NCBI GenBank assembly: GCA_947449315.1
Contig: CANFRC010000013.1
Coordinates: 1 to 64,000 of the forward strand
Source of the DNA: Bacteroidota bacterium
Lineage (GTDB): Bacteria > Bacteroidota > Bacteroidia > 2-12-FULL-35-15
Length of the DNA stretch: 64,000 bases
Direction: 5' to 3'
Positions 38,162-42,077 of the stretch are shown piece after piece (the stretch's first letter is position 1; each line of letters opens with the position of its first letter). The notes under the pieces are model-generated. The model was not told the origin of the DNA. It saw nothing but the letters and a program-made list of their open reading frames with translations, and searched no databases. A program made the position numbers and the translations under genes.

Positions 38162-39454
38162 TTATCTTCCAATTGTTCTTTCAATGCCGTTACCTAAAGC
38201 GTAAGCCGTAACAACACCTTCCTCATTATAAGTAGGTTTAACTTCTAAGTTGCGACCGGTAAGTTTACTGATTCCTTTTGTAGCAATTTGTGCAATATCC
38301 CAACCGCTGAATCTTTTCAGTTTCCCGGTTTTCTTTTGAGTGTCAATAGTGTTTTCATCCAATGTCTTTTCCTTTATCTTCTCTACTGCTAATTCGCGGA
38401 TCGAAAGAAAGTTATTATCCTTTGTTGTTTCATTTTTGTTTTCAACTGGTGCAAGCGTTTGGTTGTTAGTAACAGGTTCTTCATTTTTGTTTGCAGGAAG
38501 AGCATTGTTTGCTAGAGGCTCCGCTTGGTTAGCAGGTGTTTGATTGTTCGCAATTGATGATTCATTATTTAATGAAGGAGTTGTTGGGAAATCTTTTTTC
38601 TCGATATAGTTATTTTCCTTTTTATTGGATGTGTTTTTTACAACAACATTTTTTTGTACTGGAACTTGAGCTAAATCCGTTGCTTCATTCTTGATGATTA
38701 CCTCTTGATTTTTCTTCGGAGTTAATAACTCATTTTTAATTTTTGGCTCATTGTTTTTTGCAAGATTCTGTTGTTTCGGATCGTTGTTGAACATAAAATA
38801 CAGTCCGAATAAAAACAATAAAGAAGCTGCCACAGCCACATAATAGAATAAAGGAATTGCTCTTCGTTCTTTGCGTTTTAGCTCTTCTTTATTTTCATAT
38901 ACAATGGTTGTATCAGCAACTAGTTTCGTTTGTTGATACAAATGCAGATGGTGTTGCATTTCTGAATCAACAGCTATTTGTTGATTCAACAATGCCGTTT
39001 CTGGTCTTGTTAAAAGCCCTTCCAAAGAAGCGATCAAAAGATCGTCTGTTGTGACAACTGTTTTCTTGAGTGCTTCTTTATTTTCAAAAACGATAGAAGC
39101 ATCAGCAACTAATTTTGTTTTTTGAAATAATTCTAAATCGTTGGAATAGTGGGGGTGTTGGTTAATGAAATCTGTAACTAATATTTTTTCTCCTGGAGAC
39201 AAAGTATTTTCGATAGATCTGATAAAGTACTCGTCTTTATTCTCAAGAGTGATCTCTTTTTTTAATCCTGATTTATTTTCAAAGGTGAAATCAGAAGAAT
39301 CTTCCAAAGTGATGTTCTCAAAACTTTCAAACTCCTCTCTTAATTCAGGATTTTGCTCAATGAACAATAACAAGTCAGCCACCTGTTGAGGTGAAAAATT
39401 CCCTTCATGATAATCAAGGAAAAACGCTTCGTAGTTATTTTTATTTATATTCAT
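38162..39454 (-). CDS. Membrane-anchored anti-sigma-factor-like protein with three tandem N-terminal repeats
   Basis: Starts 5 nt after an ECF sigma gene; cytosolic repeat region, single TM (IPLFYYVAVAASLLFLFGLYFMF), N/P-rich C-terminal region. Confidence 0.7.
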   Translation of the reverse strand: MNINKNNYEAFFLDYHEGNFSPQQVADLLLFIEQNPELREEFESFENITLEDSSDFTFENKSGLKKEITLENKDEYFIRSIENTLSPGEKILVTDFINQHPHYSNDLELFQKTKLVADASIVFENKEALKKTVVTTDDLLIASLEGLLTRPETALLNQQIAVDSEMQHHLHLYQQTKLVADTTIVYENKEELKRKERRAIPLFYYVAVAASLLFLFGLYFMFNNDPKQQNLAKNNEPKIKNELLTPKKNQEVIIKNEATDLAQVPVQKNVVVKNTSNKKENNYIEKKDFPTTPSLNNESSIANNQTPANQAEPLANNALPANKNEEPVTNNQTLAPVENKNETTKDNNFLSIRELAVEKIKEKTLDENTIDTQKKTGKLKRFSGWDIAQIATKGISKLTGRNLEVKPTYNEEGVVTAYALGNGIERTIGR

Positions 39455-39459
39455 TTTTG

Positions 39460-39945
39460 TTATATAACATTCTCCATTGCACCAATGTAGTTTTTCAGAA
39501 ATCCTCTTGCTCTGAAAATATATACTTTCACTTGCGATTCTGTTAATCCTGCAATTTCTCCTATTTCGGCATAATTATATCCTTCATAATCACGCAACAA
39601 CAATACTGTACGTTGTACCTCCGGTAATTTTGTCAATGCTTCATCCAGTATTTCTTTCAGATCGCTGTATTGTCGGTTGCTACTTAAGCTATACATGTTT
39701 GCTTCCGACATATCGCCTTGCTTTTTCTCACGTCTGATCTTGTCGATCATGGTTCTGTAGGCCGAGGTGAACATATACGATTTTGCATTGGTACTTTCTA
39801 CTTCCGAAACCTTAAGCCACAATTTTTCATACGTGTCCTGCACAATATCACGCGCCTTTTCCGAATCCTTAATATTCTTAAGAATGAACCGGTAGAGGTT
39901 GTCTGCATATAAATCAACAGTTTTGTTGAATTCTTCGACAGTCAT
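39460..39945 (-). CDS. ECF-type RNA polymerase sigma-70 factor
   Basis: NLYRFILKNIKDSEKARDIVQDTYEKLWLK (sigma2) and LPEVQRTVLLLRDYEGYNYAEIGEIAGLTESQVKVYIFRARGFL (sigma4). Confidence 0.95.
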   Translation of the reverse strand: MTVEEFNKTVDLYADNLYRFILKNIKDSEKARDIVQDTYEKLWLKVSEVESTNAKSYMFTSAYRTMIDKIRREKKQGDMSEANMYSLSSNRQYSDLKEILDEALTKLPEVQRTVLLLRDYEGYNYAEIGEIAGLTESQVKVYIFRARGFLKNYIGAMENVI

Positions 39946-40040
39946 TGTAGCTTTTTTTGTGCAATTTCTGGTTTAAGACGACTAAGAAAACGTAAAGTTA
40001 CAGAGTTTTAAAGTAAATTTTTAAGTTGTTGAAAATGTGG

Positions 40041-40126
40041 GCCTTCCCCTTCGGGTCGGGCTATTCACTTCAATCTTTTGTTCGTTCCTCTCAAAAGGAT
40101 TTCCGCTACTATCCCTAAGGCGGGCT
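40041..40126 (-). repeat. Structured intergenic element, copy A
   Basis: Minus strand: GGGATAGTAGCGGAAATCCTTTTG..CAAAAGATTGAAGTGAATAGCCCG; diverged copy on the other strand at 40156-40260. Confidence 0.7.
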
Positions 40127-40155
40127 TTAAAAAAATCTGGAGGAATTTAATTACA

Positions 40156-40260
40156 TGAATAGCCCCGATTGAAATGGAAATACTTTCCGCTTTTTTGCGG
40201 AAAGATTGGAATGTAAAGCGGGTGTGAGTTTTTAAAGAATAGGGGTGTAGCTGCTCCGAA
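40156..40260 (+). repeat. Structured intergenic element, copy B
   Basis: TAGCCCCGATTGAAATGGAAATACTTTCCGC-tttttt-GCGGAAAGATTGGAATGTAAAGCGGG...GTAGCTGCTCCGAAA; perfect 8-bp central hairpin. Confidence 0.7.
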
Positions 40261-40265
40261 AGATT

Positions 40266-42077
40266 TTAATCGTTCAGCTTCAGCACAGCCATAAATGCAC
40301 TTTGCGGAATTTCTACACTACCAACAGAACGCATACGTTTCTTACCTTCTTTTTGTTTTTCCAACAATTTACGTTTACGGGAAATATCGCCACCATAACA
40401 TTTTGCAGTCACATCTTTGCGAATTGCTTTGATGGTTTCACGGGCAATGACCTTCGCTCCGATAGCCGCTTGAATAGGGATCTCGAACTGTTGACGCGGA
40501 ATCAACTCTTTTAATTTCTCGCACATCTTTTTACCGAACTCATATGCATTGTCTCTGTGAATCAACGATGATAATGCATCCACAGGTTCTGCATTTAAAA
40601 GAATATCTAGCTTCACCAAGAAACTCTGACGATAATCCAGCGGTTGATAATCGAAAGAAGCATATCCTTTTGATATTGTTTTTAAACGGTCGTAGAAGTC
40701 AAATACAATTTCACCCAATGGCATGTCGAACATTAATTCCACACGGTCGGTGGTTAAATAAATCTGGTTGGTGATGATACCACGTTTGCCGATACACAAA
40801 CTCATGATGTTACCAACGTATTCAGATTTAGTGATGATCTGTGCTTTGATATACGGCTCCTCTACTCGGTCCAATTTGCTTGGGTCAGGAAGATCGGCCG
40901 GATTATTTACAATCATTAATTCGTTTTTGGTACTGTAGGCGTGATACGAAACGTTGGGAACTGTGGTAATCACGGTCATGTTGAATTCACGTTCCAATCG
41001 CTCTTGAACAATTTCCATATGCAACATACCGAGGAATCCACAACGGAATCCAAAGCCCAATGCTGCAGATGATTCCGGTTCCCATGTCAAGGATGCATCA
41101 TTCAATTGTAATTTCTCCATCGAGTAACGCAACTCTTCAAAATCTTCTGTGTCTACGGGATAAATTCCGGCAAACACCATTGGTTTCACCTCTTCAAATC
41201 CTTGAATCCCGCCTTCACAAGGGTTGTTAACGGTTGTAATGGTATCACCTACTTTTACTTCACGAGCATCTTTAATTCCGGAAATGATATAACCAACATC
41301 CCCTGTTTTTACTTCATTTCTTGGTTCTTGTTTTAATCGTAACACTCCAATCTCATCGGCATTGTATTCTTTTCCTGTGGCGAAAAATTTTACTTTATCA
41401 CCTTTTTTGATGGTGCCATTCACCACTTTAAAGTAGGCGATGATTCCTCTGAATGAATTGTATACCGAATCAAATATCAATGCTTGAAGCGGACCTGTTG
41501 TATCACCTTTCGGAGCAGGAACTCGTTCGACAATGGCCGCTAAAATGTCGTGCACACCCATCCCGGTTTTTCCCGAAGCAGCCAGAATATCTTCTCTTTT
41601 GCAACCTAACAATTCAACGATTTGATCTTTTACTAGTTCCGGTTCTGCACTAGGTAAGTCAATTTTATTTAAGATAGGAATGATTTCCAGATCGTTTCCT
41701 AGAGCAAGATATAAGTTAGAGATTGTTTGCGCCTGAATTCCTTGGGCAGCATCCACAATAAGCAATGCGCCTTCGCAAGCAGCAATAGAACGGGAAACTT
41801 CATACGAGAAATCAACGTGACCGGGAGTATCAATTAAATTTAAAACATACCTGCCTGCCGGACAGGCAGGCTTTTTGCCATCATAATTATAATCCATTTG
41901 AATAGCATGACTTTTAATAGTGATCCCTCGCTCTTTCTCCAAATCCATATCATCGAGTACTTGTGCTTGCATGTCGCGTTTATTGATGGTGTTGGTATAT
42001 TCCAATAAACGATCGGCAAGGGTACTTTTCCCATGATCAATGTGGGCAATGATGCAAAAATTTCTAATATTCTCCAT
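40266..42077 (-). CDS. lepA: Elongation factor 4 (LepA), carrying an in-frame 7-aa palindrome-encoded insertion
   Basis: [33 protein letters not shown]-like motif, [32 protein letters not shown], ending AVLKLND. Confidence 0.97.
41850..41870. repeat. GC-rich palindromic unit inserted in frame in lepA
   Basis: CCTGCCTG-CCGGA-CAGGCAGG (21 nt, 8-bp perfect arms) = codons 70-76 (PACPAGR). Confidence 0.85.

Follow-up and report, generated by a model that had tools for sequence, protein, structure and literature searches.

We examined the gap between two minus-strand genes in a 64-kb stretch of Bacteroidota DNA (the window), namely lepA (40266-42077), an open reading frame (ORF) with a LepA_C profile match at 8.7e-53, and an ECF-type sigma factor gene (39460-39945). 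The gap (39946-40265) contains two elements, both of which are members of Flavo-1 (RF01705), an already described family. A cmscan search of the whole window returned RF01705 twice only, at 40157-40229 on the plus strand (58.7 bits, E=3.3e-10 for the 64-kb search) and at 40050-40130 on the minus strand (53.2 bits, E=1e-8 for the same search), and both scores exceed the gathering score of 42 bits. The closing stem, the two-base-pair islands in the internal loop and the tip hairpin of the Rfam model are present in both copies. An earlier sequence-only reading had placed two oppositely oriented copies between these genes, where we found them, and its conserved flank consensus and pairing hairpin tips match what is there; given that both copies match a family published in 2010, however, the element itself is not new, an outcome that the reading had itself listed as counting against novelty. 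The same genome carries a third Flavo-1 copy (G000:C5:120314-120386). Directly downstream of the sigma factor gene, a 430-aa protein (38162-39454, minus strand) has no Pfam match and, judged by its position, is probably the anti-sigma factor of the ECF sigma factor.

Weinberg et al. (2010, PMC2864571) described Flavo-1 in Bacteroidetes and put it forward as a structured RNA candidate, and Rfam files it as "Gene; sRNA". A review gives no function for it (PMC9029176), and our search of the literature on Flavo-1, RF01705 and Flavobacterium repeats found no explanation of the element.

Two architectures share one core

The sequence-only reading had treated the two copies as one element, which holds for the family but not for the structure, as the window pair comprises one copy of each of two architectural types that have the same core. 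The minus-strand copy is type B and spans about 40039-40121; the plus-strand copy is type A and spans about 40160-40261, including a recurring 3' tail. They lie head to head, and 38 nt of spacer (40122-40159) separate their facing 5' ends. The type B copy consists of the outer helix GCCTT/AAGGC, an inner GGG/CCC, the core double repeat, the tip CTTTTG/CAAAAG and a side hairpin, ACCC-GAA-GGGG. The 5' strand of its outer helix (GCCTT, 40117-40121, minus strand) has its reverse complement downstream on the same strand (AAGGC, 40041-40045), the latter assigned from covariation and the RNA minimum-energy fold. The type A copy consists of a TAGCCCC foot, the core double repeat, the tip CTTTCCGC/GCGGAAAG and a closing CGGG, followed by the tail AGCTGCTCCGAAA (40249-40261, plus strand), which recurs in other type A copies and here adjoins the lepA stop codon.

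Comparison of copies with their flanks gave a general layout for each type. Type A reads TAGCCN-GATWGNARYGGAAATCC-tip-GATTGNARYGGAWAGC-N'GG-A..., then a AGCTCCTAAAA-like tail, and is closed by CCN/N'GG, in which the N/N' pair is C-G in 55 copies, T-A in 20, A-T in 5, G-C in 2 and non-Watson-Crick in 4 (n=86). Type B reads NNNNN-AGG-[core]-CC-side hairpin-N'N'N'N'N'-CC and forms a three-way junction. The reverse complement of a copy's own outer 5-mer was found downstream in 74 of 85 type B copies, compared to 19.5 copies on average, and never more than 30, with shuffled partners, and 18 different 5-mers occur among the copies. The type B outer helix thus covaries strongly, beyond the Rfam model. 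That model shares the core, tip and closing stem with the window copies but ends short of the side hairpin and outer helix found in type B and of the tail found in type A, and it merges the two types into one. When the sense strand of the window type B copy was folded alone with RNA energies, the full three-way junction was recovered, including the outer helix, at a folding energy that was ordinary compared to shuffles (z = -0.55); with DNA energy parameters, the junction was not the best fold.

One strand is selected to fold

What the Rfam structure draws as an internal loop consists of two direct repeats of GATTGNAGCGGAAA opposed to each other. Placed antiparallel, the repeats form Watson-Crick pairs interrupted by G.A and purine-purine mismatches, including a step, 5'-GNA-3' opposite 5'-GGA-3', that occurs twice and that, by analogy with known nucleic-acid structures, may consist of sheared G.A pairs. 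The inner core pairs, already drawn in the Rfam structure, are Watson-Crick in 183 (pair W), 180 (R) and 168 (Y) of 185 copies and comprise several pair types; the exceptions at Y include 15 U.G and one C.A. Together with the strand specificity of the fold, these counts strongly support the earlier proposal of a selected nucleic-acid structure.

Mismatches in the tips and inner pairs were distributed unequally, with 78 G.U against 13 A.C. Leaving out the G005 and G015 families gave 61 against 13, and the named-genome scan alone gave 43 against 7; binomial p-values for these counts are too small because the copies are related, but the direction was the same in every subset. Given this excess of G.U, it follows that one strand folds, whether in RNA or in single-stranded DNA (ssDNA), and the fold is selected on the Rfam sense strand. 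A duplex-DNA cruciform would make no distinction between G.U and A.C, so the asymmetry rules out a symmetric cruciform.

Copy number, range and retained sites

Copy number within the genus of the window's genome ranged from 0 to 66 per genome. Copies of one genome are alike, often with similar end points; those of G055 end near the TAGCCC foot and an AGCTCC tail, and the type B family of G005 ends about 21-24 and 36-38 nt past the core. The lepA-sigma site carries no element in six relatives, while G031 and G006 (L158, L159) carry a head-to-head B/A pair there that is reversed as a whole relative to that of the window's genome. In a tree of lepA and sigma, the window's genome, G031/G006 and G017/G011/G035 form an unresolved fork. 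Since the pairs lie in opposite orientation, they likely arose by two insertions. Empty and occupied lepA-sigma sites yielded no alignable exact junction, and therefore no target duplication was readable.

The sequence-only reading had also stated that similar words recur between genes in many Bacteroidota, and this proved accurate: a genome scan with the pattern GATWGNARYGGAAATCCTTT found at least 120 loci, nearly all in Bacteroidota among the matches listed. Those matches also include about ten gut-type Spirochaetota MAG contigs (L211, L220, L224, L232, L238, L241, L246, L283, L297 and L317) and two of a Leptospirales MAG (L221 and L312), which are mostly clear type B and whose outer helices pair too. 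The Spirochaetota copies could be MAG contamination, though several separate bins agree in carrying Flavo-1. Hits in two MAGs, one from Oscillospiraceae and one archaeal, were attributed to chance and discarded. The IMG/VR scan matched 17 contigs, with genuine type B Flavo-1 on four (L319, L330, L331 and L332) and a partial one on L328; with only four genuine elements among them, we rejected a phage element.

In Flavobacterium, the gap that separates an Nramp transporter gene from a DtxR/MntR-type repressor gene contains an intact type A element in 7 of 30 species, adjoining the stop codon of the transporter; several of the other species have a decayed Flavo-1, and the rest have no element or an unrelated palindrome. 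The retained elements are closed by A-T, T-A or C-G, with a T-A to C-G double change seen by eye in L412. The remnant in L402 has no middle, which was apparently lost by deletion between two GGAAAT words. This site indicates selection after insertion, or else replacement by related copies, and the likeness between the L401 and L403 tips favors descent in place. Relative to both neighboring genes, the selected strand is the antisense one. At the same place, the Nramp gaps of L408, L415, L416, L421-L427 and L429 have long AAGNTTCTAAG-type palindromes and no Flavo-1; these are possibly another repeat family.

Gene context

Only 6 of 150 Flavo-1 copies with gene context lay inside a long ORF. The strands of the neighboring genes relative to the element were random for type A (++18, --19, +-16, -+16) and near-random for type B (++21, --23, +-17, -+7), the latter being rare between divergent genes (7/68). 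Bacteroidota-type promoter motifs were not enriched upstream of copies (17, vs 21 and 23 in controls), and RNA-type tetraloops (GNRA/UNCG) showed no excess (2 of 38 tetraloops). The "sRNA" label is thus without support from the gene-orientation and promoter counts. In the F. psychrophilum transcriptome, Flavo-1 matches show no sense/antisense preference and many lie outside transcribed regions, while some coincide with transcribed leaders (PMC9723704). The orientation, promoter and tetraloop counts together with that transcriptome favor DNA over a standard RNA role, without proving it.

No consistent replication-strand bias was seen in the two measures used. About 35 of 60 G059 copies among the matches listed were on the lagging strand, with the origin placed roughly from sampled GC skew, and the oriented local GC skew at Flavo-1 (+0.017, t = 2.3) had a sign opposite to that count.

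Search for a mover

A link to RAYT/IS200-type transposases, raised in the sequence-only reading, was not borne out. Relatives do carry transposases of IS200 type (YxxNQ) and of a subclass 2.6-like kind (Y[IL]H[NQ]NP), but Flavo-1 lay within the fetched flanks of only 2 of 60 Y1-transposase loci, and its copy number was not associated with RAYT presence (12/18 vs 14/26, Fisher p = 0.54). Two genomes with 27 and 21 copies (G044 and G012, respectively) have no RAYT, many RAYT-bearing genomes have no Flavo-1, and no RAYT was found in the window's own genome. With both linkage and co-occurrence negative, we rejected RAYT/IS200 as the mover. The ORF lists between head-to-head copies in G005 contained no transposase or other cargo, and no mover or binding protein for Flavo-1 was found in these searches. 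As a separate observation, TnpA_REP genes of the subclass 2.6-like kind (Y[IL]H[NQ]NP) occur in the Bacteroidota relatives represented by L381-L400 and L431-L460.

Discussion

What this analysis adds is the split into types A and B, the covarying outer helix, the combination of strand asymmetry with an orientation to genes that is close to random, and the negative outcome for RAYTs. The reading that we prefer, to which we give an even chance, is that Flavo-1 is a dispersed intergenic DNA repeat of which one strand folds when single-stranded, and that the window holds a head-to-head pair of it. In this reading, the strand folds into a long irregular hairpin: two opposed GATTGNAGCGGAAA strands, joined by A-T and G-C pairs that G.A and purine mismatches interrupt, form a core beneath a freely varying tip, and type B adds the outer helix and side hairpin. 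The folded strand may then be read by a putative protein, perhaps in a dimer-like manner given that the core is a direct repeat opposed to itself, and this protein might copy or move the element on the model of REP or attC hairpins. The active form would thus be ssDNA with a protein reader, and the uneven occupancy of sites would reflect movement rather than repeated loss. Old copies may sometimes be kept in place for use by the host; their in-place pairing counts against a purely selfish repeat, since such a repeat need not keep its pairing. The negative results on a mover or binding protein, on RAYT/IS200, on replication-strand bias and on exact junctions at empty sites count against this reading too. 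Two further points count against ssDNA in particular, as RNA also tolerates G.U and the type B junction is best under RNA, not DNA, energy parameters.

These last two points feed the main rival, in which Flavo-1 acts as an RNA, either a small RNA or a UTR structure read in the Rfam sense direction, whose role would be to bind a protein, or to protect or regulate transcripts. A strand-specific fold tolerating G.U, the full junction in the RNA fold of the window type B copy, the structure kept at the orthologous Nramp site and the matches at transcribed leaders in F. psychrophilum (PMC9723704) would all be accommodated by such a role. However, an RNA would not readily account for the random or near-random orientation to genes, the lack of promoter enrichment and of an RNA-type tetraloop excess, a selected strand that is antisense to both genes flanking the Nramp site, or the lack of consistent transcription in F. 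psychrophilum (PMC9723704). We therefore rank the RNA role behind the ssDNA model, whose chances we put at about even, and regard it as a serious but distinctly less probable explanation.

The distinction matters: Rfam has listed Flavo-1 as an "sRNA" since its 2010 description with no function attached, and a transcriptome study from 2021 was unable to place it. Should the element prove to be DNA, its Rfam label would be misleading for the annotation of many genomes, and the enzyme behind a common repeat system of Bacteroidota would still have to be found. One-strand selection, near-random orientation and the type B junction make both the choice between ssDNA and RNA and the search for a reader protein directly testable.

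We consider unlikely a reading in which the host maintains Flavo-1 as an intergenic signal, for example a terminator or else a nucleoid or recombination site, that acts through duplex DNA or a cruciform and spread by ordinary duplication. Copies are almost always intergenic and often adjoin stop codons, type B is depleted between divergent genes, and unrelated palindromes occupy the same Nramp site in other species, all of which would fit such a signal, but type A has no preference for gene ends and the strand asymmetry is not expected of a duplex-DNA site. An intrinsic terminator was rejected on anatomy, given that, in the copies inspected, neither strand shows a conserved T-run following the hairpin and the type A tail is A-rich.

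Flavo-1 resembles the REP/REPIN partners of RAYTs (TnpA_REP) in being intergenic, multi-copy, uneven in number, found as head-to-head pairs and built of hairpins with conserved mismatches, and as a multi-copy intergenic palindrome it agrees with how REP elements are defined. It differs in having no RAYT linkage or co-occurrence and no conserved GTAG-type foot, in its far greater length, and in combining an invariant core that contains mismatches with a tip that is hypervariable. That it is a REP-type substrate of a RAYT, for instance of the Bacteroidetes subclass 2.6, whose partners are reported to be "atypical secondary structures" (PMC6006769), is very improbable despite this repeat-like behavior and the RAYTs in many relatives, given the 2 of 60 loci, the copy-rich genomes without a RAYT, the RAYT genomes without Flavo-1 and the window's own genome.

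We also entertain, as a tentative extension of the ssDNA model, that Flavo-1 is a widespread, mobile or copyable ssDNA structure of Bacteroidota and some Spirochaetota that depends on a non-RAYT recombinase or endonuclease, with types A and B as two recognition forms able to travel together head to head and some copies adopted by the host. Integron attC sites likewise fold in a strand-specific way, vary in their terminal part and share little sequence identity, and their consensus boxes, RYYYAAC ... GTTRRRY, lie around the folded strand. Flavo-1 has no such conserved boxes, and its outer helix varies freely (18 types); we rejected an attC reading on anatomy, the R boxes showing no conservation in type B copies. 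The STAXI motif came from the same 2010 screen, and its authors suggested an ssDNA structure for it (PMC2864571). It is a repeated pseudoknot, located near genes for DNA handling, and its architecture is unlike that of Flavo-1.
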